Positions 569-63,085 of a stretch of 64,000 nt of DNA are shown in pieces. Made by a program: the position numbers and the translations under genes. The stretch comes from Scilla litardierei. Taxonomy: Eukaryota; Streptophyta; Magnoliopsida; Asparagales; Asparagaceae. Where the stretch lies: positions 92,851,248 to 92,915,247 of the forward strand of contig CM061133.1 in the NCBI GenBank assembly GCA_030789695.1, given 5' to 3'. Each line of letters begins with the position of its first letter. Within the stretch, counting starts at the first letter, position 1. Below the pieces are notes generated by a model. That model made no database searches and was not told the origin of the DNA. It saw only the letters and a program-made list of their open reading frames with translations.

Positions 569-1152
569 CACTCAGCCGAGTGAAGGAGTCACTCGGCCGA
601 GCAAAGAAGCCCACTCGGCCGGCCAGATCGGACACGCAATTACTTGAAGATTAGTGTGCACTCGGCCGATTGACGACATACCACTCGGCCGAGTATGGAG
701 ACACCACTCGCCCGAGTGGCACACGAACGACGGCATCCAAAAAGACCAGACTTATTGTAATCCGTCAGTCGACTACGAGCTCTGACTCGGCCGAGTACCA
801 AAATCCCCTCTGCCGAGTGACATTTGCCGCTCGGCCGAGTGATGCCGAGGACACGCAGCGCCCAGATTTTCAGACAGCCTCCCACTCTTTTGAAATCTGC
901 TATCATTCCAGATGTTAAAGTATTTTTTCTCATATTCTTTATGGATAGTAGACTTCGTGACGGTTCCAACGCCGCCAAGAACGCGTCAGTCGGAGGTCGG
1001 ATGAAATCTGGGGAATTTCTGCAAGTCGATGCTGCAGTGCTGGAATTCGCATGTCAGTGTCCAGTTTTTGCCAGTTTTTGACAGAGTGCTGTTCTCTGGA
1101 AATTTTGCAGGAATTCCCACTTGGCCGAGTGAGCTTTCCACTCGGCCGAGTC
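569..1152 (+). repeat. Array of ACTCGGCCGAGT palindromes in Y LTR
   Basis: About ten copies of the 12-bp perfect palindrome ACTCGGCCGAGT and close variants, irregularly spaced at 20-150 bp. Clear copies lie near 585, 608, 660, 683, 704, 785, 830 and 1139. The array ends about 95 bp upstream of the TATA-like box. Spacing is too irregular for a simple tandem repeat. Confidence 0.85.
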
Positions 1153-1247
1153 GCGACTGGCACAGAACTTAAGTTAGGCGCAGAACTTATTTTGGGCGCG
1201 GGTTTCAGAGGGTTTTTAGGGGCTGTTTGCAAGGGTTTTTTGGGGGC

Positions 1248-1255
1248 TATTTAAG
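1248..1255 (+). promoter_or_regulatory. TATA-like box of Y LTR
   Basis: TATTTAAG lies between a T/G-rich stretch and the presumed leader, about 95 bp after the palindrome array. Its position in the LTR matches the TATA boxes of the other families here. It is the weakest TATA match of the set. Confidence 0.5.
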
Positions 1256-1633
1256 GGGTTTGTAGCCATCATTAGGGGAGGTTCCCATGATGTTTTCTTA
1301 GGATTATTTTAGAGGTTAGGCCATGCCCTATGCCCCCTCTTGGATCAAAAAGCTTGTATTTGGATTGGAATTCTTCATCAAAGCTAAGTATTTCTATTCT
1401 TATTATTTGAATCTTTGATTTGCTATCTTTTTATATGCAAGCAATGGTTTTTATCGATTCTCATATCGGTATTGCTATGCTTGAGTAGATTTGTTGTTCT
1501 AGGGCTTGGGGATGAACCCTATGGATCTAATTTCAGATTTGTGATGAATGAATTTCTAAATTGCTAGGATTGCTAGGAGGTTAGGTTGTGATCGATTTAT
1601 TACGGATAGCTAGGGATTTCCATCGATTGGGGT

Positions 1634-1912
1634 TTGCAAGAGATTGGATTCTAATCGATGGGAAGGCCTAGATATTCGATTTAGGTTTATAATCGAGATT
1701 CTCTAGACTTGGTTTCCAAGAGATTAGACCAAAGCTAGGATTTTTATTATAAATCTATACCCATATTCGTTTGCAAGAGATTGGATGAATATGAACTATC
1801 ATAACCTAGAACGTAACTCGAGTTTGCACGAGAGGGGGCTCGAGGGGCGATTGAACGATGATGTTGATCCTAATGCTAGTGGCTTAGGCTAGGGTTTGCA
1901 AGAGATTGGGCC
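1634..1912 (+). repeat. Spaced repeat TTTGCAAGAGATTGG in Y LTR
   Basis: The motif TTTGCAAGAGATTGG recurs with small changes about five times (near 1635, 1708, 1768, 1823 and 1894), roughly every 55-75 bp, each inside a different flanking sequence. It lies downstream of the TATA-like box and so in the presumed transcribed part. Function unknown. Confidence 0.7.
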
Positions 1913-2325
1913 CTATCCTAGGGTTGCTATAGACCGGCAATAGCGCGAGAGCGTGAGCTTGGTTCTATATTCAGTTACGACTAGTTCACCTCAACGCAAG
2001 TCTAGTAATATTGAGATTCACTATTCACAATGATGCATGACGATCCGTAGTGGGGATTCCCTCGCTCTAGACACTTATATTATATTATATTTGAATCGAT
2101 ACTTTATCCGACTTCTTTATCACCGACACCGACATCCACCACCATTTCCATTACATCACACCATACCCATCTCCACCAATAAAAACATTCGTAGTCAAAC
2201 CAATCTAGGATAGATTGGAGCCAACACCACCTCCTCGTGTTCGATACCCGCTCACCACTTGACCGTGCGCTTGCGGTAAAACTACAATCGTTCTACGGGT
2301 GTATATCCGGGGCCGATCAAGTTTT

Positions 2326-3597: not shown

Positions 3598-3737
3598 CTC
3601 TAACCCTTTGTTTCCATTTTTAGGACTATTTTTAACTTTATTTTATCTATTTTTAATAAATAAATCCAGCCGCAAGAACTTCCGTTGAGGGACTTAGGCC
3701 GTTTGTGCACTTTTGCAGAAAACAAGGCCCCAACCGA

Positions 3738-4083
3738 TCGGTCGATAACTCACCCGATCGGTTGGGATGTATCAGCTAACGACCGTATTAGTCACTCAAC
3801 GAACCGATCGGGTGAAGCCGGCCGAGACCGGGTGACAGACCGTGTAATCTGTGCAGAAGTCTCGGGAATTTTGGGGAATTGGTCAACCGATCGGGTGAAG
3901 AAATGCGAGACCAATTGGCAGACCGGGTGAACTGGGGCTGAAGTCTCGGGAAATTTTCAGAGTTTGTCAACCGATCGGGTGATGATAAGCATGACCGGGT
4001 AGAAGACCGGGTGAACAACACCAAACTCTCGAAAAAAAACTGTGAAGCGACGAACCGATCGGGTGACATTCACCCGATCGGGT
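3738..4083 (+). repeat. Internal array of CCGATCGG palindromes, copy A (first part)
   Basis: About nine copies of ACCGATCGGT/G-type palindromes, many in opposed pairs such as ACCGATCGGGTGA with TCACCCGATCGGTT. Copia E1 is inserted at 4102; the array resumes at 13174-13207 and is followed by a TATA box. The motif is the same one found in this family's LTRs. Confidence 0.85.
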
Positions 4084-4101
4084 CGCCTGTAGCCAACTTT
4101 C

Positions 4102-6699
4102 TGTTGGGGTTTTGGCGGACCCCCAGAGCTCGGATCCGTATCCGTCCTAAGTCGGACGGACCACAGAGGCACAAAAGCGCAGCGGAAAAACAAGAAATCA
4201 AAATTTCTACACTAGCTAAACTATTTAGCTAGGCTTTGGGGAGCCAGAACCTAGCCCGATCTATGCCGACTTGGAGTGGGTCTGACAACCCCAAGAAGGA
4301 TCTACACTAAAGCGACTAATTAAAAATTACAATGGAAAACGCTTAACCACATACCCAGAATCTTGGCCCTGGAGCAGGCAAGATGTACCGCACCGTCTTG
4401 TGAAGCTCCTCGTAGCCGAGCCGCGTTGACCCGATCTGCCTGAGCCGCCTCGCACCCTCGCACCGATCCGCCCGAGCTGCTTTTGCCTCCGAGCCGATCA
4501 CACGCGGTAGAAAGTTTCACTTGAGAAGAACCCGCGTCTTAGACGTCCGGATCAGATCCAAACCCCCTTCGTAGTCGTGCTTGGACTACTCCGGAGAATA
4601 GGAAAATAGAGAGAGAGATTTAGTCGCCGATCGAGCTTGCTCTAAAAATCTGGAGCTACTCGATCGTTGACTGGTGTGTGTTTCAACGAGGAGAGTGCAC
4701 CCCTATATATATAGGGAGTGAGCACTCAACTTCTCGTTGCGGGCAATGTGGGACAATTCCCATGAAGAGGAAAAATTCAATTAAGCCATTTGGCTTAATT
4801 TCAACTTTAAAGTTAGCCTTTCACAAATTCAAACTTTAACGAATTAATTCTCTTCGCATACTAAACTTCAGACACCAAACAAGCTATCAATCAGAAAAGC
4901 TTGGAATGGTGAACGCGTAGGAACTGACGGTGACGAATTTCGACTTCGTTTGACCCCTCAAACAATTGCTCAAAGTTTAGCAATTTCTCAAAATTCGTAG
5001 CCGTCATTAGGGGTTACAAAAACCCTAATTTGACTTAAGTTGCGGGCACGCCCGCTAGGCTTAGCGGGCGCACCCGCCCAAGGGAGCAAGGGCGGGCCGC
5101 CCGCCCGTTGCTGCAGCGGGCGGGCGCCCACTGTCGCAGCGGGCCGTGCCCGCTGCAAGCAGCGGGCCGCGCCCGCTTGCTGCGGGCGCTGGCCCGCTGC
5201 GTGCAGCGGGCCGTGCCCGCTGCATCAGCGGGCGCTGGCCCGCTGTGCAGCGGGCCGCACCCGCTGTTGCAGCGTGCGCCCGCCCGCTGCACACAGCGGG
5301 CCGCGCCCGCTGATGCAGCGTGCGCCCGCCCGCTGCACACAGCGGGCCGCGCCCGCTGTTACAGCGGGCGTGCGCCCGTTGAAGCCAGCGGGCGACGCCC
5401 GTTTTGCCTTTGCACATGTGCCTTTTGGCCCAGTGGGTCTAACCCACTTCTCCTTGAACTGTTTCTGCGTTTCTGGACTCGTTTGAGCTCCGATTTGGAC
5501 GCGGTTTGAACCTGTGTTTAGACCGGGACGATCCCGTCATCCAGGTAACCCTTTCCAACAAGTTTGTTCCCACTAAATTTTTCGTAACTAATTTATAACA
5601 CGTTTAGTCAAAGTTAGCATCTAATGCAACGTTGTGTCCCTATTGCTAATGCGACTAACTTTCACAACTTAACTTGTGAATATCATCAAATGATATTTCT
5701 CTCTATTCTATATTCCTATTACTAAGACACAAACACTACTCGGTGTGAGACCCTACAGCCTGACCTTACTACAGGTTGGGGCTCTAAACCCCTAGACGAC
5801 GGTCACTACGAGCAGTAGCTGTCGTCCCTGTTTCAGAGTCATCATAACGTGATCGACCCTTGACAAAAGTATCATAGGTTTTGCATTGGCTGTGTCAGTG
5901 ATGAATTCCGTTAGCTAAAATCCCTTCGTCAAGACTGTGTTTATTGTTGGCCTAGGGTATGGTTTTCTGTCAACCCTATTAGACAACATTGGTCAGTATA
6001 CGGTGGTCTTTATTGTATACATGTTGTACTACTTGCAACGTACCCCGGTCGAGGATTAACATAAAGACCGTACTGAGCCTATAACACTAACTTCCCTTTA
6101 ATGGAAGTGACGAATCCCATCTTAGTCACTTACTCACCTTGGGAGCTTCAGGTGCAGCCCAACCTAAGATCTTTCAGCAGGACTGGTCCTCGAAGCTAGA
6201 TCATGGGTCTAAGCTATATCGTCCGCTCACAGGTTTGTACAGATGACTTCAGGTCTTAAGGATCAACTAACATATCATCACCCTAGAGTTATTAAAGACA
6301 GATCATTAAAGTTAACCATTTAATAACTCTAAGTTGGTCGTTCAGTGAACTCATTCCCCAATGAGCACCTGTGTCTCGTCTCCGACTTCAGCAAGTCGAA
6401 TGACTATGAGATCACCATTACCATAAGGTAAGACGAAGACACAGTGATCTATTCGATGTGTCGATATCCAGTTCTCGACACATCTATGATCACGAACCGT
6501 TTAAGACTTACGTTTCTATTCGGTCGCTTACTTACTCATAATCGAGATCTCATCTAGATATGTAAGGACCTAACTATAAGTCTATGGATATTATCTAAGT
6601 ATATTAATGATTTTATACTTAGAATAATACGTACCATATGCGGTATGAACAAGACGTATAATCAAGATAAATTGCCTTATGGGCATATATCTTCCTACA
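4102..6699 (-). repeat. Copia E1 3' LTR (left)
   Basis: 2,598 bp running TGTTGGGG to CCTACA on the plus strand. It matches the right LTR almost throughout but is about 130 bp longer, because its GC-rich palindrome array (5040-5405) is longer. A TATA-like TATATATA lies at 4704-4713. Confidence 0.92.
5040..5405 (-). repeat. GC-rich CCCGCTG/CAGCGGG array in E1 3' LTR
   Basis: About 365 bp of alternating CCCGCTG and CAGCGGG half-sites, forming overlapping palindromes such as GCCCGCTGCAGCGGGC. Open frames in several phases here are by-products of the repeat. Corresponding arrays are 11622-11857, 21098-21230 and 38190-38342, all of different length. Confidence 0.9.
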
Positions 6700-6710
6700 T
6701 CTCCCACTTG
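6700..6710 (-). promoter_or_regulatory. Polypurine tract of E1
   Basis: On the minus strand CAAGTGGGAGA abuts the 3' LTR. It would prime plus-strand DNA synthesis. The same sequence lies beside the E2 3' LTR at 22547. Confidence 0.75.
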
Positions 6711-7932
6711 CACTTAGGCTATTTATCTCGGTATCTCATACCGTTATAGCATATCAGTCACTTTGACATTTGATATGGAAAACCTAAGAATGGTTCTACT
6801 AACAAGTATCTACAACGAATTTTAATGGATTGAAATTACATCTCTTGATCACACAGGGTTGATCCTTTGGAAAAATGATCTGGATCAATTTTCCTAACTT
6901 TGTATAGCTAACAGTTAGCTTATACGATTTAGATGTAGGGTCTAACATTTCCGTAAGTCAGTCCTAGCTCACTCCACTTTATTGTGTCAATATGTCAAGT
7001 GAATAATTGACACCCTAAGTCTCTATATATAAATGATTAAATCAAAACAATTTTGACTTAATGATTTATATAGAAGATTCATTAAAGTGAAATATCCTTT
7101 TTACTTAGTCCGAAAAACGGAACTAAGTATATGAGCTGGCTCCCACTGACTTTAAGAATTACCTGGTTAAATTATTGCAACATAATATCATATTTAGATT
7201 TATGTGCAAAAATAACCATTTCGTAAGTGCCTCAGATGGAATGCACAAGTGTCAGGTTCGGTTTGACGAATGAGTCAAGTCAAGATCGTTTTAAGGAATC
7301 TTGTCATTGACTCGTTCAATCAAAACGTCCTACACTGTACTTATTCCTTTAACCACATTTAGTATTAATTCTTTTAATAACTAAATGCAGATAATCAAGA
7401 ATTAATCCTGATATGCGTATTATTGTGATCGCACACAATTTATACGCCCCCTGGAACCTACACTTAACTACTGATTGACTTCTAGCATTTAGTCAGCTCC
7501 AAAATCAATATTATCGAAGCTATACACCATTATTTGAAAATATACGTAACCATCACAGAAAAGCCACATCCACAGAATTTAAGCCAATTCAATTTCAATT
7601 GCAACAAACGAGACATCCATTCCAAAACAACGGGTTCATGAAAAGAACCTTAATTTGTTTATCAAAAATAAACCTTGAGTGCAAAGCACTCATTCATTGT
7701 TTTCGATCCTTAAAGATGATACATTTTATTCAAATAAGATAAATATCATCTCCATCACGATCATCGTCTCCAGAAGTCTTTGAGCGGTCCCAGCAGCAAC
7801 TGTTGCTTTGATTGCCGACCGATCTCCGTACTCCTCCAATCTCCAGTTCTTATTAGCCACCTGTATACAGTACACAGATGTCTATAAGTGTCTCACACTT
7901 TATGAATGGAAATAATTGCATTTAATTGAATT
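6711..7932 (-). other. E1 interior downstream of gag, no pol
   Basis: About 1.2 kb of AT-rich sequence between the gag stop and the polypurine tract, where a full copia element would carry about 4 kb of pol. I see no protein-like frame and no protease, integrase or reverse transcriptase motif. The E2 counterpart (22547-23799) aligns and is also noncoding. Confidence 0.75.
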
Positions 7933-8757
7933 TTAATTTGTACCTGAGGTGGAGGCATCAGTATGCCCCTTCTTCTTCTCTGCAAGATAGATCTTGCAGT
8001 TCCTCTTCCAGTGGCCAATCTTGTGACAATGGAAGCACTCAGATTTCGACGGGGGCCCTTTGTTCTTCTTCTTCCCATTCTTAGCCTTCACTGGTTGTGG
8101 GACCTGCCTCTTCTTCCCTTTGCCTTTCGGCTGGTCGGAAGTAGCAGAGCCAACAACCAGTGCAGTCGGCTTCTTCTCAATCTCCTCAAACTGCCGGAGC
8201 ATATTGAGGAGACCAGGAAGATCCGTCTCAAGGCTATTCATTATAAAGCCAGTTATAAAGGGCTTGAACTCGGGAGTTAAAGACTTTAGGATAATGTCCG
8301 TGGACATCTCATTGTCCAGGAGAAATCCTAACTGGGCGGCGTCCTCCACGTACCCGATCATCTTGATAACATGATCTTGTACGGGCCTTGTCGTCATCTT
8401 TGTGCCCCAGAGGTTGCTAGTAGCTTCGAACTAAGCAGCTCTGGATCGCTTGCCATACAACTCTTGTGCATTAAGGAGTATGCTCTGAACATCCATATGT
8501 TCATGCTTCCTTTGCAGTTCGTTGGTCATTGAAGCTAGAGTAAGGCATCTTGCCTTCTCTGCATCCCTCTGGTACAACTTGAAGGCTTCTTTCTCTTCGT
8601 GGGTCGAATCCTCATCAGGCTTGTCCGGAGCGTCCTCAAACAATATGTATCCAATCCCAGCTAGGGAAAGGACCAACTTAATGTTCCTAAGCCAGTCTTT
8701 GTAGTTGGTTCCATCCAGCACGTTTTTTTCTACCATGTATTTTAGACCTGAGTCCAT
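7933..8757 (-). pseudogene. gag: Copia E1 Gag with one stop
   Basis: UBN2-type copia Gag of about 275 codons, starting MDSGLKYMVEKNVLDGTNYKDW and ending DASTSGTN. The N-terminal two thirds is the capsid-like part. A lysine-rich segment follows, then one CCHC zinc knuckle, C-F-H-C-H-K-I-G-H-W-K-R-N-C, that would bind RNA. A TAG at 8431-8433 replaces the lysine codon found in E2 (RSRAAKFEA), so the copy is inactive unless read through. Gag would package element RNA in cytoplasmic particles; enzymes must come from another element because no pol follows. Confidence 0.88.
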
Positions 8758-10667
8758 TCTGCATTTTATAGATATTTTAGTTAGTATATGTTCGTAGTAT
8801 AGTTTTAATGGTTTTAATAAAACTATATTCTCCCACTAAATTTATTTAAATCCATAATAATAAACAATTTATTATAAAATAACATTTGTGAGAGAGGGAT
8901 CCGACTACCCTGAGTCTGACAACCTTGAGTGTATCTCAACAAGTTGTCCAACTCTGCAGTCGGTAGACGAACTCGTCGTCAATCATATTTACTATGATTC
9001 CCTATCTATTTTACCCCGTCATTTGTGATCATGAGTGTACTCAGCCGGATCACAATGGCTAGCCTAGTCGGACCCTTGTTTTCGTGTCTAGCCTGACTTG
9101 CCCCTTTGCTCGGTGTATGCACGACGCGCCGGTTTGGGTCAGGTCTTAGACTACATTCTTGGTTAGACTTACGCCGAAGCTCGAGGGATGAGACAACGGT
9201 TTCAGTCAGGTAAAGATGTCAATCAAGAAATCGGTTTCTATAAGATTGACATGTCACGGCTTGAGTGTAGCTCAACAACCGGAACATGTTTCTTACAGTT
9301 GCCAACTCCTAAAACAAGGAGGGCTACGATTTATCTTGAACAAGATTATTATCGTATTGACTTAGGTATAGTCGATGGACTTACATAGTCATGAATCGAC
9401 TCCTTGCGGTCCAGCGGACGCGGCCAGGGAATTGACTAAGCCAGGACCACTTGTTACCCAGTCTAGCTAGGTTGGTCCAAAAACTTTAGCCAAGCACATT
9501 GACCGACATCATGATACATTGAAGGAGTTGTCATCAATCTTATGTTTTCCAAACAACTAAATGGCTTTTAATTAAGAGAACTAGTTAATCCTTATCAACT
9601 AGTTGATCCTAAAATTCAAATTTTTTTTCATATTGGTTGAACATCTTTTATTAAGTCCTTATCAACTATAAGGTTCTTCGTTCAACTTGCTACCCAAATC
9701 TAATTAGGATTTTAATAAAACAATTCAACATTGTCTTTTTATGAAAATCATTTAATTGAACGTTTTAATGAAATGATTTACAAAACAAAGGGACTACCCT
9801 AATCTGGTATTAGGTTCGATGTTGTTTTGTTTTATCAAACATAGCATGTCACTATCTTGTTTTAATGGCTAACCTAATAAGGTTTGTGAATACATTATTC
9901 AACATGAAATGAAACAGCTAATTTATCCGCATAAAATAAAGTTTCATTTTAGTGACATATGAAGTGTATTTGCAAGTTTAACATTATCTACATAATTAAA
10001 ACATGCAAATCTAAATTTTAACACTTAAAATTAAAGATTAAAAATTTAAAGCCTCCATAATAATTTTATCGCATAAAACTAGGTCGAACAAAAGTATCTA
10101 ATAATTTTTAAACTTTGGCTTTTAAAGTTCTTGATCTCATTTCTAAAATTAAATATCTCATAAAAATTTTAGAAAACATATATGTAAAATAAAAGAAAAA
10201 GTTTGGATTTCATCTCATGAAAATAAAATATTTCTTAAAGTTTACATATCCATTAAAACAATTTTAAACACTTTTAAAATCTTTTAGAAATCCTTTTAGA
10301 AGCTTTCAAATAGGGTTCAAAGATCTCTAACTTTTATGTAACTAAAGAAAACTTTTAGATTTCAAAAATAAAAATTTTCTATAAAGTTTACATAAACTTT
10401 AAATACTCTTTAAAATTTTTTTTTTTTCAATGTCACATAATAAAAATTTATAAAGTATTTAAAACATAGGAGACTTCTTTTAGATTTATCGCATAAAAAA
10501 TAATTTGTCCCAAAATTAAAATAAATTTCCGTGTTGCAAAATTAATTTTTTGAAACACAAAAATATTTTCAAAACTAATTTAACATAAAGCTAAAAAGTT
10601 TTGCACATGAAAGCTAAGCATTTTTAACGATTAAAAAGTCGCTATAGTAGATCTATAGCATAACCGT
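8758..10667 (-). other. E1 long 5' leader
   Basis: About 1.9 kb between the primer site and the Gag start, very AT-rich towards 9600-10660, with no protein-like frame. The E2 counterpart (35306-37233) is of similar length and sequence. It is unusually long for a copia leader and presumably holds packaging signals. Confidence 0.65.
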
Positions 10668-10680
10668 GGCTCTGATACCA
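10668..10680 (-). promoter_or_regulatory. Primer binding site of E1 (tRNA-iMet)
   Basis: The minus strand reads TGGTATCAGAGCC one base from the 5' LTR, complementary to the 3' end of plant initiator tRNA-Met. It fixes the element's orientation. Confidence 0.9.
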
Positions 10681-10681
10681 C

Positions 10682-13145
10682 TGTTGGGGTTTTGGCGGAC
10701 CCCCAGAGCTCGGATCCGTATCCGTCCTAAGTCGGACGGACCACGGAGGCACAAAAGCGCAGCGGAAAAACCAGAAATCAAAATTTCTACACTAGCTAAA
10801 CTATTTAGCTAGGCTCTGGGGAGCCAGAACCTAGCCCGATCTATGCCGACTTTGAGTGGGTCTGACCACCCCAAGAAGGATCTACACTAAAGCGACTAAT
10901 TAAAAATTACACTGGAAAACGCTTAACCACATACCCGAAATCTTGGCCCTGGAGCAGGCAAGATGTACCGCACCGTCTTGTGAAGCTCCTCGTAGCCGAG
11001 CCGCGTTGACCCGATCTACCTGAGCCGCCTCGCACCCTCGCACCGATCCGCCCGAGCTGCTTTCACCTCCGAGCCGATCACACGCGGTAGAAAGTTTCAC
11101 TTGAGAAGAACCCGCGTCTTAGACGTCCGGATCAGATCCAAACCCCCTTCGTAGTCGTGCTAGGACTACTCCGGAGAATAGGAAAATAGAGAGAGAGATT
11201 TAGTCGCCGATCGAGCTTTCTCTAAAAATCTGGAGCTACTCGATCGTTGACTGGTGTGTGTTTCAATGAGGAGAGTGCACCCCTATATATATAGGGAGTG
11301 AGCACTCAACTTCTCGTTGCGGGCAATGTGGGACAATTCCCATGAAGAGGAAAAATTCAATTAAGCCATTTGGCTTAATTTCAACTTTAAAGTTAGGCTT
11401 TCACAAAGTCAAACTTTAACGAATTAATTCTCTTCGCATACTAAACTTCAGACACCAAACAAGCTATCAATCAGAAAAGCTTGGAATGGTGAACGCGTAG
11501 GAACTGACGGTGAAGAATTTTGACTTCGTTTGACCCCTCAAACAATTGCTCAAAGTTTAGCAATTTCTCAAAATTCGTAGCCGTCATTAGGGGTTTCAAA
11601 AACCCTAATTTGACTTAAGTTGTGGGCGCGCCCGTCCAAGGGAGCAAGGGCGGGCCGCCCGCCCGCTGCAAGCAGCGGGCGCTGGCCGGCTGCGTGCAGC
11701 GGGCCGTGCCCGCTGCATCAGCGGGCGCTGGCCCGCTGTGCAGCGGGCGCCCGCCCGCTGCACCCAGCGGGCCGCGCCCGCTGATGCAGCGGGCCGCGCC
11801 CGCTGTGCAGCGGGCGTGCGCCCGTTGCAGCCAGCGGGCGGCGCCCGTTTTGCCTTTGCACATGGGCCTTTTGGCCCAGTGGGTCTAACCCACTTCTCCT
11901 TGAACTGTTTCTGCGTTTCTGGACTCGTTTGAGCTCCGATTTGGACGCGGTTTGAACCTGTGTTTAGACCGGGACGATCCCGTTATCCAGGTAACCCTTT
12001 CCAACAAGTTTGTTCCTACTAAATTTGTCGTAACTAATTTACAACACGTTTAGTCAAAGTTAGCATCTAATGCAACGTTGTGTCCCTATTGCTAATGCGA
12101 CTAACTTTCACAACTTAACTTGTGAATATCATCAAATGATATTTCTCTCTATTCTATATTCCTATTACTAAGACACGAACACTACTTGGTGTGAGACCCT
12201 ACAGCCTGACCTTACTACAGGTTGGGGCTCTAAACCCCTAGAAGACGGTCACTACGAGCAGTAGCTGTCGTCACTGTTTCAGAGTCATCATAACGTGATC
12301 GACCCTTGACAAAAGTATCATAGGGTTTGCATTGGCTGTGTCAGTGATGAATTCCGTTAGCTAAAATCTCTTCGTCAAGACTATGTTTATTGTTGGCCTA
12401 GGGTATGGTTTTCTGTCAACCCTATTAGACAACATTGGTCAGTACACGACGGTCTTTATTGTATACACGTTGTACTACTTGCAACGTACCCCGGCCGAGG
12501 ATTAACATAAAGACCGTACTGAGCCTATAACACTAACTTCCCTTTAATGGAAGTGACGAATCCCATCTTAGTCACTTACTCACCTTGGGAGCTTCAGGTG
12601 CAGCCCAACCTAAGATCTTTCAGCAGGACTGGTCCTCGAAGCTATATCATGGGTCTAAGCTATATCGTCCGCTCACAGGTTTGTACAGATGACTTCAGGT
12701 CTTAAGGATCAACTAACCTATCATCACCCTAGAGTTATTAAAGACAGATCATTAAAGTTAACCATTTAATAACTCTAAGTAGGTCGTTCAGTGAACTCAT
12801 TCCCCAATGAGCACATGTGTCTCGTCTCCGACTTCAGCAAGTCGAATGACTATGAGATCACCATTACCCTTAGGAAAGACGAAGACACAGTGATCTATCC
12901 GATGTGTCGATATCCAGTTCTTGACACATCTATGATCACAAACCGTTTAAGACTTACGTTTCTATTCGGTCGCTTACTTACACATAATCGAGATCTCATC
13001 TAGATATGTAAGGACCTAACTATAAGTCTATGGATATTATCTAAGTATATTAATGATTTTATACTTAGAATAATACGTACCATATGCGGTATGAACAAGA
13101 CGTATAATCAAGATAAATTTCCTTATGGGCATATATCTTCCTACA
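10682..13145 (-). repeat. Copia E1 5' LTR (right)
   Basis: 2,464 bp, TGTTGGGG to CCTACA. The core promoter TATATATA is at 11284-11293 and the palindrome array (11622-11857) lies upstream of it in the direction of transcription. Close similarity to the left LTR outside the array suggests a fairly recent insertion. Confidence 0.92.
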
Positions 13146-13173: not shown

Positions 13174-13222
13174 CAACCGATCGGGTGACTTTTCACCCGA
13201 TCGGTTCGACTTAAATATATAG
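13174..13222 (+). promoter_or_regulatory. Athila copy A internal promoter: array end and TATA box
   Basis: The last inverted pair of CCGATCGG palindromes (13174-13207) is followed within 10 bp by TATATAG (13216-13222). Then come a C/T-rich leader and ORF3. The arrangement repeats that of the LTR promoter (16088-16484) and is shared with copies B (29182-29616) and C (49516-49898). Confidence 0.6.
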
Positions 13223-46417: not shown

Positions 46418-46423
46418 AGTTTA

Positions 46424-49317: not shown

Positions 49318-49363
49318 GCATCTCTTGCGGGCGTCGAGCCAACGACATTAAACAAGTGCGCTT

Positions 49364-49381
49364 CATGGGAGGCAACCCATG
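49364..49381 (+). other. Conserved post-protease hairpin, copy C
   Basis: CATGGG-AGGCAA-CCCATG, as in copies A and B, about 50 bp after the protease stop. Confidence 0.7.
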
Positions 49382-49515
49382 TTCTAAACTTTTTCTCCAA
49401 TTTTTAGCGTTATTTTTTACTTTATTTTATCTATTTTTATAAATAAAATCAGCCGCGAGAACATCCGTTCGGGGACTTAAACAAATCTATTGGTTTTTGC
49501 AGAAAACAAGCCCCA

Positions 49516-50337: not shown

Positions 50338-50682
50338 ATGCCTCCCCGCCGTGTTAAACCCACCGACGCCAGCTCTTCGAACCCTAGGCCCAACCGTCGC
50401 GCTCGTCGCGCACAGCCCCCCGCTCAGCCCACCACCCCCAACCCATCTGCCCCCGATCAAGACCAAGTCGATCGATTCATCGCCATGCTCCTCCTAGCTG
50501 GGCAGGGTGGTCGGATAACCGAGGAGTCCGTCGACCGAGACCTCCCCTTTCTTCAAAGATTCGTTCGCCACATCCGCGAAGACCCACCCGACGTCTCCGA
50601 GCTCCACATTCCACCCCCCACGACCCCTGGTCCACAGCGCAGGCCCCCGTCACCACCCCCAGAGGGTGGTGCCCCTGCTTAA
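50338..50682 (+). CDS. Athila copy C ORF3, short form
   Basis: Intact 114-codon ORF, clearly homologous to 13646-14050. It has the same basic start MPPRRVKPTDASSSNPRP and RRARR, a shorter middle, and the core DQVDRFIAMLLLAGQGG, FVRHIREDPPDVSELHIP. The tail is Pro-rich and ends EGGAPA. Indels against copy A keep the frame. The core could be a short helical domain; there is no clear transmembrane segment. Function unknown. It is preceded by its own array, TATA box and possible leader intron. Confidence 0.62.
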   Translation: MPPRRVKPTDASSSNPRPNRRARRAQPPAQPTTPNPSAPDQDQVDRFIAMLLLAGQGGRITEESVDRDLPFLQRFVRHIREDPPDVSELHIPPPTTPGPQRRPPSPPPEGGAPA

Positions 50683-51098
50683 TTTTACTCTCCCACTTTT
50701 GCCCCCCCATATTTGTGCCCATCTGTCTTTTCGGGGCCCTGCTTTGTCTCTGTCGGAGGGAGGGGACTATGTGCGTGTTGCTTCCTAGATTCACCTCTTT
50801 TGTTTTTGACTCCCCCTTGCACATCTCTGCATTTTATTGATCACATCATTTCGCTAGCACTTTCTGGTCTAGCTTGGGGGACGTCCACTTTGGTGTGCTG
50901 TCGTGTCTTGTTTGTTTTTCTCGTTTTTTGTGTGTGTGCTTGTTTTTCATTTTTTGAGTGTCGTGTCGTGTGGTTTTATTTTTATTTTTCGTATTGTTTG
51001 ATTTTGATTTTGATCTTTCTTTCTTTTTCAGTTTTATCTATGTGTTTTCCTCGTTTTCATTTCTTTTTGTGTCAGTGCATTCCCCCCCCCCCCATTTT

Positions 51099-51143
51099 CA
51101 TTGCCCTCCCGTACTCACTCATATTGCATTGAGGGCAATGCAA
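51099..51143 (+). other. Potential bistable hairpin, copy C
   Basis: CATTGCCCTC (51099-51108) competes for the GAGGGCAATG (51131-51140) that lies within TTGCATTG-AGGG-CAATGCAA (51124-51143). The polypurine tract TTTCAGCTTGGGGGA follows immediately. Confidence 0.6.
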
Positions 51144-52339
51144 ATTTCAGCTTGGGGGAGTCGCACTGTGTGCGTCGTTTGAGTCCTTTTTTCGTTTTTT
51201 GTGTCGTTTTCATCGTGCTTTTATTTTGTTTTTTATTTTCTTCTCTTTTAGCTCTTTCTCCTAGAGATGAATCCTATGATGAATCGCCACAAAGTCACAC
51301 ACACCTAGCATTGCATCGATATTCACACTCACTAACCCTAGGATTTCGAGTCCTCTTGCATTTCACGCATCGCGGGTCCACTTAGCTTTTTGTGAGTCGT
51401 GTGTCGTGACTAGCATTGGTGTGCTTCTGCCTTGTGATTTTACTTTATATATCTGTCCAGGAATGACCCCTAGATTATCATGCTCCGATTTGAATATGCG
51501 GTATTTGTTTCCACTGTTTGCATGCTATATTTATATCGTATACTTCAATTCGCATGCGTCGGGATTCCACAACTAAGGACTAGGATAACCCATTTAGCCT
51601 ACGCTCTATTTAGCGAGAATAGTTTCCTTTGCCCAAGTGTTTAGATTTCGACTTCTTTTTTGTTTTACTTGGTGCAAATCCCCTCGTCGTGTACCGTTCT
51701 CCCACTTGGGAGAGTACACATGTGTATAGCCAATATCCCAAAAATCAAAAAAAGGAGAAAAGAAAAGAAAAACCCTAAAAGAAAAGAAAAGAAAAAATTG
51801 TGTATAGCCCAAAAATCCAAAAAAAATACAAATGCCCAAAACCCAAAAAAATTTCCGTGTGAATATTTTTTCATACTTGCCAAGAATAAAGGGAAGGCGA
51901 GAATTTGCACCGAATGTTCTTCTCCACATCATCTCAACCCCCGTCGTTATCGAAAACACTTGGCTTAGGAACTTTTTAGCTAGTATCTAGGCTATAGTGG
52001 CGTGATTTCCTTAACCCTAGGAACTTATATTCGCCGCTTAATTCAATTCGGATCGATATTTTGGGTCATATCTTGGATTTGTGTATATCGAGCCTCATAG
52101 CACATCGTAGAAAGCATCACCATTTGCTAGCACACGACCACGCTCACTCGCGCTTCACCGCGTGGACCCACGACACTTATTTGGACTCGCTTTCCTAGGT
52201 TTAGTGGTGTGATTTGGCGTTTGCTTGCTTGGTGTGTCGTTTCTGTTTTTGGTGGCTCTGATGGACGATCTAGGGTTTAGAGTTTTCTTTTCCTTTCTTC
52301 CTCTCTATTTTTCCCTTCCGAGCTCCTACTCTCACTCGT

Positions 52340-52376
52340 CTTCCTCGAGGACGAGGAAGAGTTCAGCTTGGGGGAT
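52340..52376 (+). promoter_or_regulatory. Terminal hairpin and polypurine tract of Athila C
   Basis: An 8-bp stem with AGGA loop (52340-52359) is followed by TTCAGCTTGGGGGA and the LTR start at 52379. It would prime plus-strand DNA. Copy A has the same arrangement at 15810-15846 with one stem mismatch. Confidence 0.7.
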
Positions 52377-52378
52377 TT

Positions 52379-53938
52379 TGACGTGCGTTTATATTTCATA
52401 TATTCACGCATGTTTTCTTTTGTGTTTCCCCGTGTTTTTCCGCCGTCTCTTATTCGTTTTCGTATATTTTCCCGTTTTCTTTCACTTTTCTTTGTTTATC
52501 CATGATTGCAGGAGTTCGACCACGTAGGGGACGTTTAACGATGATATCCCAAGTCCCCGGAGCAACGGGAGAAGTCACGCATGATCTAGGGGGTCAAACG
52601 TCAAAGAATTCATCTTTCAGCCCCTCACCCGGTCGGTTGGTCATCTTCAACCGATCGGGTGATGCACGCGTGCACCACCCGGTCTCTACCGCAGCTCACA
52701 AAGAAGTCACCCGACCGGTTCACAGACCGGTTCTGCGGGCGGCTGTTCTCTATTTTTTCGAGCAGAATTCCAACCGATCGGTGACTCTCACCCGATCGGT
52801 TCATCTGTAGCTGAAGAAGAAGAGCTGAAGACACGGGCGTCGAACCGATCGGTTCACCCGACTGCTCCAAGATCCAACCGGTCGCTCAAGAACTCACCCG
52901 ACCGGTTCATGAGATTGGGTGAAAACTCGCTGTTTTCTGTTATTTATCTGTAACGGATCAATTGATCGGTTGACTTGTCAACCGATCGGTTGATGCGAAG
53001 TTCTATATATAGAACCCCTAGGGTTCTAGAAACGGGAGTTGCTGTTTTTTCTACTGTTTTTATTTCCTTGTGACGGCTGTAATTGTTACTCTTTTGTAAG
53101 TTTTCGGATCTTTCTAAAATTTTAGTAGTGTCTTTATTACTCTATTACTTACGCATTGCAATTGTCCGATTATGATTTCAACGGTTAAATTTCATTTAGA
53201 TCGCTTTTTCATGAATTTTTGTGAGTAGTTCCCAAATCTGGGATTTTGGTGGAAACCCCTTCGGGGGCTCTTCCCGATGCGTCCATAGGGTTAGGAAATC
53301 GATAGGGAGTAGGAATCTAACGGTTACGCGGGGTGTTTCATTGTCATTGGCGGGAAAAAGACCGCCTTTGACCGTTGGGCCAAGGGGGAATAAACTTGAC
53401 GGTTGACTCTCTAGCCATAGCTCACGCCCTTAGCGTAGACGCCGAATCCTAGCACGCGGGAGCGGCAGGATGAGACGTTGGGAGATATCGTTGCGGGCTT
53501 AGTGCTCACGGGATCGATCAGTGTTAATGTACACGGGAGTGCCCACTGATCGAATCCGGGAAGTCCGGTGTATCATCCTGGGCACCGACCGGAATATCGG
53601 GCCCATGGGACGCCGGTACCACTTTCAGAGGCAACGTCTCACCATTAGACCCTAATCCCGATCGCTATCCATACCCGTAGGCCGTATCGGCGAGAGTCTC
53701 TCGTCGGGTTGGAAACCAAAGTCCCGGGTTTACTTTCCTTTCGTTCATACCCTTTTTATTTTCTTTCGTGACAACCATCTACCGATTCAGGCTAGCTCGC
53801 CCCTCGGGGTGATTTAGGTCCTACCTGACCCAAGCACAACCTCGCCTCCCTGAGTTCGATATTCCCGCACCCTACACTAACCGTGAAACTTGCGGTAAAC
53901 GACACCGCGCCGCCGCGCCACAAGCGGGGCGCCGGTCA
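52379..53938 (+). repeat. Athila copy C right LTR
   Basis: 1,560 bp, nearly identical to 44859-46417. TATATATAG at 53004-53012. It ends GCCGGTCA before ATCGT. Confidence 0.93.
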
Positions 53939-57216: not shown

Positions 57217-59629
57217 TGTAACGACTGGTTTTCATGTATCTGGATTTATTATATTATAATATATGTTTTGGTGGATTTTCTCCTCATGTGTAGTTTTCGT
57301 CTCCGTAACTTTCATTTTCGATCGTTTCGTCGTGTTTTCTCATTTCTTCCTTAGGATCGTCGATTTCGGAGTAAGTCATTCGTGACGGGCTTCATAACGG
57401 TCGTATCTTACTGTTAGATCAAGCCTAGGAGTCTTAGGAATCGATCCCGGAGCTCTGCACTCCGTATCGGAACTTTTGGTGCTTATTAGCCGGTATAAGA
57501 AGGGGAACTGACCGACTAGATGACGATCCAGTCGGTCAGCAATCCTTCTTGAACCGACTAGTTGGCTTTCTAAATTATTCAGGAGTTACTGTTTATCGTT
57601 AGTCGGTCTAAGAACGTTGGTTGACCGACTAGGTTGCAAACTAGTCGGTCAGCAATGCTTCTTTAACCGACTAACTCTTCAACTAATTTTTGGTATCAAT
57701 ACTGTTCACTCTTAGTCGGTCTAAGAACGTTCATCGACCGACTAGATGTCAAACTAGTCGGTCAGTAGTTGTTCATCGACCGACTAAATCCAAATCCTAT
57801 TTTCGTTCAGAAGTTACTGTTTACACCTAGTCGGTCTACGTTGGTCGACCAACCGACTAGTTCTCAAACTAGTCGGTCAGTGGTTGTTCTTTGACCGACT
57901 AACCAGTGCTGTAAACCCTAGTTTTGCCCTAGCCGCCACCAAACTCTATAAATACCCCTCCAAACGTTTTCCTCTTCTCCCTCATGACCTAAAACCCTAA
58001 TTTCTCCCCCATTGAGCCCCCATCTTCCTCAAGCCATTAATCCTTCATCCCAAGCTCATCCTCCATCATCCAAACCCTCCCTTGTCACAACCCATCTCTC
58101 ATCTTCCCCAAACCTTCATCAAACCCCCAAAATCCACCTCCAAACCCATTTCTCCATATTTTTCCCTCATTTCCAGATCTGAGCCGGATCGTTCTTCCGT
58201 TGTCGTGGTTGCTCGGCATCACTCCTCCGCCTCTTCACGGTAATACTCGATTCCTTTAGTTTTAGCATAACCCCCATTGACATGTGTGAAACCCTAATAA
58301 AATGGATTATTAGAAAGTTAGGATTCTAATAAGAAATTGATTTAGAATCGTTGTTCTAATGATTGTTTTGCCATAACAGCGATCTATTCCGTAGTTAGCT
58401 TGTGACGATCTTCATTGCTCGTCAACCCCGGTATCAGGCAAGTGAAACTTGCCACTCTTGAATTGGGCCATGTCTTAGGCCATTTCCCTTGCTTTAGCGT
58501 AAAAGAGACTAGACGGTGAAAGGATAGCCGTCTAGACGCCTATGACCTAGCTTGACAACAAAGCTTGGTCCGTCACCCTCATCATGCTTGTGTGACACAT
58601 TTACTTTAAATTAACGGTACGCGAATATGTTCATGTCATTGCATTTTGCCTGTCACGTTTAAATTCAATTAACGATACGCAAATATCTGTTCCTGGCATT
58701 GCATATTGATTTGTCATCGTGATTGCGTAGCACACGCTACAATACTATTATTTTCCTGGCTCGTGTTCCAGAAGCGAGCCCTGTAGTTGGAAACCCCAAC
58801 GCTCGACACATATGGGTGGGGTAAGAGATAAGCGGCCACCTGAGCCCCGAGTTGGCCTGATCCGCCACTCCGGCCAGCAGGCGAAATCTCTAGTGTACAA
58901 GTGATTAATAGTGATAGAGATAAGCGGCCTGAGCCACGAGCTGGCCAGCAGGTGGACTCTCTACGCACTAAGTGATAAACAATGATAAGTGAATAGTGAT
59001 TAGTGAATTGGTAGCTTTGGCTACATAGTGCGTGTTTGCCTCTCTTTTAAACTGTTGCATCATACTTAACTGCCATGTCATTGCTTAATATTATAAGTGC
59101 TAGGTTGTTAGTTAATTTCAGTTTCCTTGCTCAAGTCTTTTAGACTTGCTGACATGTGCCCCTTTCTCTTTTGGGTGACGCATGTTAGACCTTGAGCCCG
59201 AGTTGCTTGCTGAGGGTGAGGTGTTTGCGGACGCCGAGCTTGCGCCTGTGTTGGACGAGGACTTCGTAGACACTGGAGATCAGTCTTAGTGTCTACGTCT
59301 AGTTTTGTTAGATCTTTTGGGTTGTCGGTGCGTGGCACCTAGTTTGATACTCTATTATATTTGTCTTTTGTTTGGCCTTGTTCTGGGCCTTTAGACTCTT
59401 TCCTTTAGCCTGGTGGCTTTTCTGTGATGTTGAATATTTTGTGGACAAACTGTGGGATTGGTATTTCATATCCATCTCACCTTATTATTATTATTGTTGT
59501 TGTTTCTTTTGCAATTACAGGGACCTTCTTGTACTAAATTTACGCTTATCAGGCGTGCAGCTTCACAGCTCCACGTTTGAGCGGACCTTCTCACGTCTCG
59601 CCTCCATTTTAGGGAAGCGGGTCGTGACA
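57217..59629 (+). repeat. Tekay X right LTR
   Basis: 2,413 bp matching 40900-43311. The array is at 57508-57900 and TATAAATA at 57947-57954. It ends TCGTGACA before ATGTC. Confidence 0.93.
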
Positions 59630-59658: not shown

Positions 59659-60472
59659 TCTAAGGATGAGAATTCAGTGTTTCTCTTCTCATCCTCTTCC
59701 AATTTGGAGGCGATGATGATGATGATCTGTAAAAAAGTTCAAAACTTATTTTTTGAGAAATATGCTGAGGTGACATATGATGACCTGCAATCGTGCAGAT
59801 AACCATCTTGCAGACATTCTTTATCAACTGATTATAATGGGCTGATATGAGTCTTCTCCTTTTATAAATTGCAGCCTGAATAATTTTTGGATACATGACC
59901 ACCAAAATCTGTTTTTTATTGGTGGCTTTTTTTTGTATTCTACAGTTTCTTAAAAAGATTATAATTGGTTATAATCAGGCACACACACGCAGAACATATC
60001 AGAAACATAGACACACATATATAGACTAACACATAGACATGAAATCAATCAACTTGTTTCTATTTCTTTCTAGAGGAAGGATCACAAAATCAATCAACTT
60101 ATTGAGATATTAATGTTCTTATGGAAATACAAATTGAAACATGTGTGTGGGTATGTGTGTGTGTTTGTGTGATGAGAATTCAATGCTTTTCTCATCCTCT
60201 TCCAATAAATTTTGGCAATATTATTTTAGAGGTGATGCCAATGATGATCTAACAATAAGATTACAACTTATTTTCACACACAAAAATGGTGCATCGAGGT
60301 AGGATGGCCTGCAATCGAACAAACAACCATCTTGCTGTGATTCTTTATCAAGTGATTTCAATGGGCATATCTGAGCATCCTTCTTTATAAATTTGTTAAT
60401 AAATTGCAGCCTGAATCTTATTTTTTTGTTGGTGGCTTTTTCTTTTGTATTTCAACGTCGCTAAAAAAATTA
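59659..60472. repeat. Direct duplication of a 300-bp unit
   Basis: 59659-59960 and 60168-60472 are diverged copies (for example GATGAGAATTCA, CTCATCCTCTTCCAAT, GACCTGCAATCGTGCA against GGCCTGCAATCGAACA, AATTGCAGCCTGAAT, TTGGTGGCTTTTT). Both follow TG-rich sequence. No coding sequence or clear terminal repeats are seen. It may be an ancient microsatellite-flanked duplication or a repeat family I do not recognise. Confidence 0.7.
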
Positions 60473-61129
60473 TTTTATTTTAAAATATTCTGTTTCACTG
60501 ACAGCAAATCGTCAGTAATTCAGTTTAATAAAAAATTAATTTTTAATATTCAGTATTATTGACGGATGCCCGCCAGTAGCAAATTTATTTTTTTAAAAAG
60601 TAGGTGTATCGCTGATGGTGTTCCATCAATGATAATATAATATGTCTGACTGACACTGTCAGCAATACGAACAATATTGCTGACGAGTCTGCCAAGGTGC
60701 ATTGTTATATCGGTGACGGGAACCGTCAGCAATACAGACACTATTGCTGATGGGAACATTAGTGACAATTTTTTTAAAAATATAGCCCTTTGGTTGATGG
60801 CTTACCGTCAGTGATAATATAATATCTCTGACGGATACCATTAATGATACAGATACTATTTCTGATGGGGTCCGTTAAGGTGCTTTGTTATATCACTGAC
60901 GGCAACCGTCAATAATAATTCTGATATCCGTGATGACTGATGTTGCACGTCAGGGAGTTTTCACCGACAGTAACCATCAGTGATGATGTTACTCACCGAT
61001 GCCTCCTAGCGGGCCTGCTAACGAGATTATGCCGTTAGAGAAAATTTTCACTGATGGCAATTATCACTGATGACAATTTGACTCTTAAAACCGCTTTTAC
61101 TGTCAGTAATAGTCGTTTTTCCTGTAGTG
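60473..61129. mobile_element. CACTA-type DNA transposon, one end
   Basis: The right edge reads CGTTTTTCCTGTAGTG (ending 61129), the inverse of the CACTACAGGAAAA terminus of plant CACTA (En/Spm) transposons. Before it lie many short subterminal repeats in both orientations built on CTGACGG and CCGTCAG, also typical. No matching left end is visible, and there is no transposase, so this is a truncated or non-autonomous copy. TCA after 61129 could be the 3-bp target duplicate. Confidence 0.65.
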
Positions 61130-61682
61130 TCAAACTTCATGAGTTTGTGACACACGATGATGAAATAATAGAGCTGCCTACTACGGGTTACCGATTTCAT
61201 GGTAGGTGTTACGATGGGCAACAAAAACGAAGGCTGGCAGTGAAAATTAGAATAGACTGAAATCCAACTAACAAATTTGCAATATTTCAATTTCTCTCAT
61301 TTACTTTACATTAGTTTTTTCTTCATCATACGGCAATTAGTTAGCAAGGGATCAATTCTTCGATCTTCATAAACAATTACTGGTGTCCAGAGAAGTTAAA
61401 GAAACTTCAAGAAAGCTGTTACATCATGTGTCTTCATGCTCTTGTCTTTTGGAAAAAGGTAAATTTGCTTGAGTTAACAAGTTTACACCGGGCGTCTTCA
61501 TACTCTAGCGTTTTGGAAAAGGTAATTTTGCTTGAGTTGACAAGTTTAATTTGTTTTCAATCAAATTTTGCAACGTCACTCACACACATATATAAGCTTG
61601 TTTACATGATTTGCGATCACATTTAGAAGTCAGATTACCCAGGATACATATTGCAATCTTTAACCCTAAATAAAGCGCTGAG
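61130..61682. other. Unassigned AT-rich sequence
   Basis: A short open stretch up to the stop at 61258-61260 (ending GQQKRRLAVKIRID) shows no family I know and begins inside the CACTA end. A near-duplicate of about 35 bp (GGTAAATTTGCTTGAGTTAACAAG-like at 61458 and 61521) recurs. Nothing else is supported. Confidence 0.35.
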
Positions 61683-62215
61683 TGTTGGGATTTATACGCA
61701 CTTAAGACATTTATTGTAATTAACACATCTTATTCAAAGTTATTGTATGTTATTTGGCACTCTTTATCTCTTTGATTTATTGATATAAATATGTATATAT
61801 GTATATTAATATATAATTTCATAGATAAAGTCCTCGGATTATGTGATGTGATTAGGCTCATAATGAGATTATGATAATACGGCACAATTTCAAAGATTTT
61901 GCCTTGATGGAGATTTCATAGCCGTTTGCTATGGAGACATCATGAGAAAGAGTGCATCTGCTTGATGGAGATTAAGTTCATAGAACGATGCATCGAAAAG
62001 CTTTTATATGGTGTCATACTCTCACTGTCAATAGAAGCTCTCGAGTAAAATCTCGTGCATGTTAGTCTTTAGACTTGAGACACACTAAAGAACCTTGAAC
62101 ATCGGGGACTATACATTGGCTTCTACAGACCAATGATAATAAAGTTATTAGTAGGTATTCACTGGTGTAGACAGAAGAATTCAAAGGGAGTGTGGGATCA
62201 CTGTATTGGACAAAG
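61683..62215 (+). repeat. Possible degenerate copia LTR fragment
   Basis: Starts TGTTGGGATTTATACG and carries noncoding sequence (GACTTGAGACACAC, TCACTGGTGTAGACAG) that resembles, in general style, LTR/leader sequence of copia elements such as E1. No partner LTR or primer site is visible. Confidence 0.3.
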
Positions 62216-63085
62216 TGACATTAAAGTATGTTGAATAGTGTCTTTCAAAAATCAACCAACAATGATATTAAAAGTGTAACTAATTAATATCAATTTAAAT
62301 ATGTAAGCAATATAATAAACAAGAATGTATAGATAGTGCAAACCAGATAATAGCAATCGTAAATGCAAAAGATTTATCTTGGAGTAATCTCACTAATCAT
62401 CTCTAATCCTCAAACTTTTCGCTTAAGATTTTTCACTATAATCTTCTTACAAACCAAAAGATATACAACCTTGATCACCAAAATAGTGCCAAGAACCTTA
62501 CAGCTCTCTCAATCACCTCGTGAAAGCCTTTAACAAAGATTGAAAGTACAAACTCTCATATAGCCGTGAAGATACGTTTATGTGGTTTTAATGATGGCTA
62601 AGGAGTGAGATTCTATCCTAAATTATTGGAATTTGACAGAACAGAATTTTAGTGAATATTGGCTTTTCTTTTGAAGAAATAGGAAGGTGGAATCAATGAT
62701 CTAAAACTCAATTGTTGTAATCTCTTGTACATAACCAATGAGGTTACAATCCCAATTTGTAGAGTGAAAAAACAATAAATATTAGAAAACTAGTTATTAC
62801 AACAGATAGAAAACGACTATTTTTTAGCAGTCGACCCAACCAACTGATGTTGTTAGTCGACTAATAACTTCATCAGTCGACTAATGGTTCAAACGAAAGT
62901 AGGGCTGTCATTCTGTATTTAGTCAACTAATGGTCCGCTTAGTTGACAACCATTAATCGACTAATAGATATATTAGTCGACCGTATTAGTTGACTAGACA
63001 TGGATGAAAAATACACATTATTGTTTATGTATTAGTCGACTAACTATCTCATTAGTGGACAAATAGATTTGTTTTTGCTCATGAT
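62216..63085 (-). repeat. Copia LTR-like fragment with TAGTCGACTA array
   Basis: The layout resembles the F LTR: near its left end GTTGAATAGTGT, as at 19308. From 62828 to 63060 there are about eight copies of TAGTCGACTA-type palindromes. No primer site or clear TATA box is seen. Confidence 0.5.

Follow-up and report, generated by a model that had tools for sequence, protein, structure and literature searches.

The window, a 64,000-bp stretch of Scilla litardierei DNA, includes LTR retrotransposons of five families, Athila, Y, copia E, copia F and X, in each of which CG-containing words are repeated in arrays. All the arrays claimed in a preliminary description of this DNA were found where it had placed them or nearby, and they are located within LTRs, as defined by LTR pairs and target-site duplications (TSD) for E1, E2, X and Athila A3. 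Athila and X include Ty3/gypsy-type domains, and E and F carry a copia gag.

Three Athila elements, A1 to A3, lie on the plus strand. The A1 3′ LTR has an array of the word CAMCCGRYCGGKTG at positions 16096 to 16465 (TATA 16476), the A2 5′ LTR array spans 24700 to 25089 (TATA 25100), and A3 (44859-53938, TSD ATCGT, LTRs at 44859-46417 and 52379-53938) has a 5′ LTR array at 45106-45473 (TATA 45484) and a 3′ LTR twin at 52626-52992 (TATA 53003). In all three elements the LTR word recurs in a second array ahead of an internal TATA box or putative promoter. The internal arrays of A2 and A3 extend from 29182 to 29597 (TATA 29608) and from 49514 to 49878 (TATA 49890), and that of A1 is found in two parts, one at 3731-4084, behind which copia E1 is inserted, and the last two words at 13174-13207, followed by ATATATAG at 13215. 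The internal arrays and the A3 twin are absent from the preliminary description. The LTR and internal regions can be aligned only in short stretches of 32 to 99 bp, yet the word is identical in both. Extra motif copies are found upstream of an env-like ORF in A1-A3 and in a Y-like element at locus L033. This ORF was identified by its domain in A2 and L033 only; in A2 it is a piece on the plus strand (30163-30867) with the ATHILA domain PF03078 (E 7.6e-09), and no match to this domain was found in the pieces behind the A1 and A3 internal arrays.

The Y LTR (TGATCGG...CCGATCA, 264-2320, plus strand) is followed by the PBS TGGCGCCGTTGCCGGGGA and then by a short, truncated piece of internal region, which rules out a bare solo LTR. 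Its array of the word CACTCGGCCGAGTG, usually repeated every 21 to 23 bp, spans 569 to 1153, with a TATTTAA box at about 1248. The start of this LTR is common to L009, L033 and two C1 copies. As in Athila, the Y-like element of L033, assigned to Y by its word and by a stretch of only 192 bp, close to gag, that matches the beginning of the Y LTR, repeats its own word ahead of an internal TATA box. A sister relationship between Y and Athila is probable, and the description of five unrelated families must be rejected on this account; a parallel origin still holds for copia versus gypsy. The view that the motifs are private to each family was overstated, as a single degenerate pattern, YAVYCGR, accommodates the half-sites of five arrays, although this pattern was drawn up after the words had been seen and fits neither E nor the L022 word.

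Copia E1 (4102-13145, minus strand, TSD CTTTC) has LTRs at about 4102-6699 and at 10683-13145. The 5′ LTR array (11650-11847) consists of 16 alternating half-sites 10 to 12 bp apart, with a TATA box 356 bp downstream, and the 3′ LTR array (5050-5400) includes 28 half-sites, GCCCGCTG/CAGCGGGC; all six E pairs listed were symmetric with near-perfect arms. E1 was considered as a Sirevirus and rejected: its internal region has no copies of the Sirevirus PPT octamer AGGGGGAG and no AT/TG attachment site, and its single PPT, AAGTGGGAG, ends in GGGAGA directly before TG. A second element, E2 (20125-39660, TSD CTTAC), has short, decayed minus-strand arrays in its 3′ LTR (21105-21228) and 5′ LTR (38198-38335). 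These two arrays and that of the E1 3′ LTR had not been described before. E2 splits the minus-strand array of copia F, word ACAGTCGACTGT, into a promoter-proximal part (20042-20085, with TTATATAAG at 19953-19960) and a distal part (39674-40238).

The X element, which is chromovirus-like, lies on the plus strand (TSD ATGTC), and its 3′ LTR (57217-59629) is 98.3% identical to its 5′ LTR (40900-43311). The half-sites GACCGACTAG/CTAGTCGGTC form dyads, with neighbouring dyads 21 bp apart, at 41193-41585 (TATA 41629) and in a twin array, likewise not described before, at 57510-57902 (TATA 57946). In the putatively copia-like fragment at 62828-63063 the word, TTAGTCGACTAA, and the 20-bp steps were borne out, other steps being 13, 14 and 46 bp. 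At another locus, L014, palindromes considered as a promoter array proved to be a tandem repeat of about 74 bp and were discarded.

The window has 60 CG-containing exact 10-bp palindromes, against a mean of 18.6 and a maximum of 28 in 100 block shuffles. An unbiased scan for such exact palindromes recovered clusters that correspond to the Y, F and Athila sites; it is blind to X and E because both consist of spaced inverted half-sites. The term palindrome used for the words is only partly appropriate, since symmetric sites amount to 6 of 52 for Athila and 4 of 20 for F in the window and the remainder are imperfect. A CGG-CCG core is found in Y, the CCG-CGG order in Athila and E and both orders in X, while F has neither. 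The words may resemble DRE or auxin-response sites.

The claim that the arrays lie just upstream of the TATA box stood for Athila (11-12 bp in six of seven arrays; in the seventh, ATATATAG follows after about 8 bp) and for X (44 bp), but not for the other families: the distance is about 87 bp to TTATATAAG in F, about 94 bp to TATTTAA in Y and 336-356 bp in E. Placement was evaluated with 15 arrays of the five families, several of them related copies, leaving out the 62.8-kb array because its sense strand is unclear. CTATAWA was found within 60 bp downstream in 8 of the 15 (random mean 0.23, maximum 3 in 2000 trials) and within 400 bp in 12 (random mean 1.5, maximum 7). In all four Athila LTR arrays, as well as in the internal array of A2, the last two words lie 31 and 11 bp before the TATA box; in the internal array of A3 the distances are 32 and 12 bp.

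Measured between their centres, adjacent words are usually 19 to 23 bp apart, or about two turns of the helix, in Athila, Y, F and the X dyads, and 21.5 to 24 bp apart in E. Pairs with the 19-23 bp step made up 98 (Athila) and 99 (Y) of the first 100 places listed for each. Genome-wide counts of pairs were 77,591 for Athila and 90,140 for Y, against 762 and 24 for the reversed controls, and one 12-bp word has 233,458 exact copies as compared to 109 for the reversed word. When 25 arbitrary 10-kb stretches of the 3.68-Gb genome were searched with eight words, 10 held an array, or 8 without the two words first seen in those same stretches; reversed words gave no cluster.

Divergence among seven Athila LTR copies was 0.085 in the cores, 0.151 at degenerate positions and 0.327 in the spacers, and CpGs were kept at 116 of 133 places within Athila words and 217 of 364 outside. 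CG-containing palindromic 10-mers are in 2.37-fold excess (123, including 12 from one satellite-like locus, versus 51.8), while for other palindromic 10-mers, excluding those of AT only, the ratio is 1.14. Arrays also differ between related elements. In one copia lineage the word has been replaced while the LTR backbone is conserved (E versus L022 and L011x), and the words of Athila and Y differ. The X word is unchanged in all three X-like LTRs compared, so the case for replacement rests on that copia lineage and on Athila versus Y.

We interpret the arrays as homotypic promoter-proximal regulatory arrays for sequence-specific factors, probably dimeric, with a probability of about 0.66. This reading, close to the homotypic enhancers proposed initially, best fits the fixed Athila offset, the two-turn pitch, the conserved cores and the occurrence of one word at two promoters. 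Each word would represent two facing half-sites for a putative protein that binds specific DNA sequences, most likely a dimeric transcription factor of the host, and the two-turn repeat would place the bound proteins on one face of the helix, where they may act jointly on the TATA box; we infer activation rather than repression. Each family would keep its own word, in Athila at the LTR promoter and at the internal promoter ahead of the last ORF, and words may drift or be swapped between subfamilies while the LTR backbone stays. A swap could plausibly reflect use of a different factor or escape from small-RNA silencing. The presence of different words in related families suggests that the promoter of each family is read by DNA-binding proteins matched to its word. 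Several observations count against this interpretation: the array-to-TATA distance ranges from 11 to 356 bp across families, the Athila-type LTRs of L019 and L024 lack a TATA box behind the array, off-register steps occur (13, 14, 46, 50-55 and 69-73 bp), the L021 and L022 arrays have no clean two-turn step, divergence of the Athila LTR upstream of the array is only 0.165 and so below that of the spacers, and half-site geometry varies among families, so that no single rigid dimer could read every word. Furthermore, in-register duplication, as seen in A2 (about 22 bp) and L021x (42 bp), could alone preserve the step, but the spacers are mostly dissimilar, which argues against recent duplication as its whole cause. 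Such duplications would also be expected if slippage or template switching during reverse transcription multiplied palindromes as a neutral by-product, an explanation that is very improbable given the pre-TATA location, the conservation of cores relative to spacers, the dissimilar spacers and the word at two promoters.

If the arrays acted through structure, either as regulatory cruciforms or RNA hairpins or as a source of small RNAs, they would find a precedent in the palindromes of maize Sireviruses, which are small-RNA hotspots and have been proposed to feed small RNAs (PMC5311732, PMC10760457); the spaced inverted repeats of E and X, whose arms match almost perfectly, also speak for this. 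However, 46 of the 52 Athila sites lack symmetry, as do 16 of the 20 F sites, and no compensating covariation was found between the Athila halves (odds ratio 0.10, p 6e-4, all sites; 0.36, p 0.39, not significant, for the 25 unique sites). Imperfect palindromes without compensating changes favour protein half-sites over hairpins, and structure would not need a fixed place before the TATA box. For Athila and F we consequently reject hairpins as the principal explanation, whereas the spaced repeats of E and X may still form structures; structure in general we regard as quite unlikely. The words might instead be bound by an element-encoded, VANC-like protein for anti-silencing or self-regulation, the Athila-type candidate being the ATHILA ORF. 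The word common to LTR and internal arrays but different in Athila and the Y-like element, the ATHILA domain that A2 and L033 carry downstream of the internal promoter, and the differing motif arrays of related VANDALs (PMC5735166) are all consistent with such a binder. On the other hand, E, F and X have arrays and no extra ORF was found in them, the A1 and A3 pieces lack the domain, and DNA binding by the A2 piece is putative: none of 198 candidate homologs reached the threshold of E 0.001, and the fold predicted from its sequence alone (mean pLDDT 33.6) is meaningless as a model. We therefore consider an encoded binder unlikely. The CG sites could also make the words methylation-sensitive switches tying promoter output to silencing state; all five families' words carry CG, CG-containing palindromes are in excess and CpGs are better kept inside Athila words. 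This role could coexist with factor binding and need not compete with it, and as a separate explanation it appears highly improbable.

The layout proposed here for factor-binding arrays has already been described in Ty1/copia Sireviruses as repeated motifs (RM) (Bousios et al. 2010, PMC2829016). In both cases dyad-symmetric, CG-bearing words are repeated many times in the LTR shortly before the TATA box, extra copies lie upstream of an env gene or env-like ORF and the word varies by element. According to the part of that report considered here, palindromic promoter arrays are a Sirevirus-specific trait, while the present arrays belong to Athila-type and chromovirus-like Ty3/gypsy elements and to copia without the Sirevirus PPT; the two-turn step and word replacement do not appear in that part. 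A measurable spacing rule and replaceable words are what is added here. No palindrome arrays of Athila or chromoviruses were found in the literature searched. In Arabidopsis Athila6A, too, the last ORF is preceded by an internal promoter, that of ENV, with no array in the portion of the account at hand (PMC4977677), while here the LTR's own word and offset are present. Del (Tekay) LTRs have plastic CpG islands, a variable CpG-rich region comparable to the present one and proposed to be a moving silencing target, but these are described, in the text available, without palindromes ('palindrom' count 0) or spacing, and eudicot Del is reported to lack them (PMC4029996). The VANC target arrays of VANDAL are likewise short non-coding motif arrays that differ between relatives and arise in tandem repeats, although VANDALs are DNA transposons with a known encoded binder (PMC5735166, PMC10398659), here putative.

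It is conceivable, if doubtful, that the regulatory networks of plant retrotransposons are insulated from one another, as those of VANDAL elements are. Extended to Athila-type and chromovirus-like elements, the promoter plan known from Sireviruses would become a general one for LTR promoters in plants, and the ways in which retrotransposons choose their regulators and escape homology-dependent silencing could be tested directly.

LTR retrotransposons, nested in one another, make up the window; the host is a plant with a genome of 3.68 Gb. The chromosomes are very unequal in size: C4, C12 and C13 measure 358, 333 and 825 Mb and the others seen, at most eleven, 146-228 Mb, a disparity behind which we guess at sex chromosomes. 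Elements and target-site duplications were delimited by self-comparison of the window and by the junctions, and duplications were present for four elements: copia E1 (CTTTC), copia E2 (CTTAC), the chromovirus-like Ty3/gypsy element X (ATGTC), and Athila A3 (ATCGT), which sits within X. Protein domain search detected gag, protease and the ATHILA ORF in the Athila copies; gag, protease, RT, RNase H, an integrase zinc finger and a Tf2-1-type SH3 domain in X; and copia gag in E and in a second copia family, F, the match in E1 being weak. Both copia E copies (n = 2) are inserted into foreign palindrome arrays, E1 (4101/13146) within the internal array of Athila A1 and E2 (20124/39661) within the F array; a passage of PMC6911290 reports that palindromes are weakly preferred as insertion sites.

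The arrays of CG-bearing palindromes that the preliminary description had placed ahead of the TATA boxes of several LTR families were found in the window, and they represent a promoter design, real and widespread, that follows a spacing rule. The window has 60 CG-containing palindromes of 10 bp, versus 18.6 (at most 28) over 100 block shuffles. Across 25 stretches of 10 kb taken arbitrarily from the same genome 123 were observed versus 51.8 expected, 12 of the 123 coming from one satellite-like locus, while palindromic 10-mers that are neither CG-containing nor AT-only number 206 versus 181.4. Over the window and these stretches, palindromic CG six-mers gave 13 clusters for 23 words, versus 7 for 33 among other palindromes, 231 for 1162 among non-palindromic CG six-mers and 544 for 2814 among the remainder; shuffled sequence gave 0.70 palindromic clusters per set. 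When eight words (the near-palindromic motifs of the arrays) were sought, at least one array was present in 10 of the 25 stretches, or in 8 without the two words first spotted there; one word had no cluster in these stretches, and reversed words had none. Genome-wide, ACTCGGCCGAGT occurs at least 233,458 times versus at least 109 for its reverse. The palindromes at L014:6380-6800 were rejected as a promoter array: they form a tandem repeat, about 74 bp long, in which palindromes of the CGTGCGCACG type abound.

The pitch, defined as the distance between centres of neighbouring words, is mostly 19-22 bp in Athila, 21-23 bp in the LTR family Y, 19-22 bp (also 61-62) in F, 20 bp (also 13, 14 and 46) in the array at 62828-63063, 21 bp (also 71-92) for the X dyads and 21.5-24 bp in E. 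Averaged over seven arrays, the mean cosine is 0.58 at a period of 21.5-22 bp, and among periods shorter than 13 bp the highest value falls at 10.5 bp (0.52). Pairs of CCGATCGG separated by 1-30 bp number 77,591 genome-wide versus 762 for the reverse, and pairs of CTCGGCCGAG 90,140 versus 24; among the matches listed, which come first on a single chromosome and have related copies among them, centres lie 19-22 bp apart in 98 of the first 100 CCGATCGG pairs and 21-23 bp apart in 99 of 100 CTCGGCCGAG pairs. The arrays of stretches L021 and L022 do not follow a clean two-turn spacing.

CTATAWA lies within 400 bp 3′ of 12 of the 15 arrays tested (random mean 1.5) and within 60 bp of 8 (random mean 0.23), these arrays not being independent because several are related copies. 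The other three carry TTATATAAG (F), TATTTAA (Y, in three copies) or ATATATAG (A1 internal) in its place. The final two words stand 31 and 11 bp 5′ of the TATA box in all four Athila LTR arrays and in the A2 internal array, and 32 and 12 bp in that of A3. The Athila-type LTR of stretch L019 has no TATA box behind its first array; farther down the LTR are a second, more uniform array of CACCCGATCGGGTG (L019:6133-6246) and then TTATTTATAAG at about 6308. At L021:7961-8350 a GC-rich array with half-sites GGCCAGGG/CCCTGGCC lies immediately past an X-like LTR end.

Within arrays, word identity is 0.78-0.88 and spacer identity 0.22-0.33 in nine of the 14 arrays measured; the other five are the A1 LTR (0.51), Y in L009 (0.46) and the internal Athila arrays (0.40, 0.56 and 0.81). 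Comparison of seven Athila LTR copies gave the lowest divergence for word cores (0.085), with 0.151 for degenerate positions, 0.165 for the sequence upstream and 0.327 for spacers, the cores being somewhat favoured since word columns were picked by match to the word. Symmetry is rare among the sites of the window, holding for just 6 of 52 in Athila and 4 of 20 in F, and changes in one half are not compensated in the other. Such asymmetric, non-compensating sites are what the degenerate half-sites of a protein dimer would predict, and a hairpin would not.

Each of Athila A1, A2 and A3 bears its word again in a further array past the protease region, immediately 5′ of a TATA box, alignable with the LTR array only over short stretches (32-99 bp). 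In A2 an ORF piece downstream carries the ATHILA domain, which had no match in the A1 and A3 pieces tested. The internal arrays of A3 and A2 start about 200-280 bp past the protease ORF (49236-49514 and 28985-29182), and therefore no reverse transcriptase or integrase lies in between; judged by their sequence, both copies look non-autonomous. The minus strand of L033 carries 192 bp that match the start of the Y LTR, together with gag, a protease ORF, CACTCGRYCGAGTG arrayed in steps of 21, 21, 62, 21, 59, 22, 22, 62, 22, 22, 63 and 22 bp, a TATA box 17 bp beyond this array, and an ORF bearing the ATHILA domain; this element was placed in Y by the LTR match and the word only. In Arabidopsis, Athila6A is known to have an internal promoter for ENV (PMC4977677, in part).

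Words differ between lineages. E1, E2 and stretch L030 share GCCCGCTG/CAGCGGGC; outside the array, L022 aligns block by block with the E LTR at about 0.56-0.80 and has its TATA box in the homologous place, and its array site is CCCAGGCG/CGCCTGGG, unlike the E word. A second LTR of the L022 kind, L011x, is 78% identical to it. The X word is kept in all three X-like LTRs (about 73-86% identity). Y, probably a sister of Athila, has a common PBS with it, weakly similar LTR ends (E 0.001) and, in the Y-like element of L033, a gag 43-44% identical to that of Athila over 133 residues; the words of the two differ. A pattern devised after seeing the words, YAVYCGR, covers the half-sites of Athila (CAMCCGR), of Y (CACTCGG), of F (CAGTCGA), of the array at 62828-63063 (TAGTCGA) and of X (TAGTCGG), and thus the words may be variants, differing in geometry, read by one factor family. 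The E and L022 half-sites do not fit it.

The palindrome-array layout is already known from one copia lineage: in the sections of Bousios et al. 2010 (PMC2829016) available to us, palindromic motifs lie ahead of the TATA box and ahead of env in Sireviruses and are termed Sirevirus-specific. The CpG islands of Del LTRs are variable (PMC4029996, in part), and the closest system having a known binder, on the portions available of PMC5735166 and PMC10398659, is the VANC target arrays. No description of such arrays in Athila or chromoviruses was recognised in the open-access literature, as far as the texts retrieved extend. What is new is the presence of these arrays in Athila-type and chromovirus-like elements, together with the common pitch, the paired promoters and the replaceable words.
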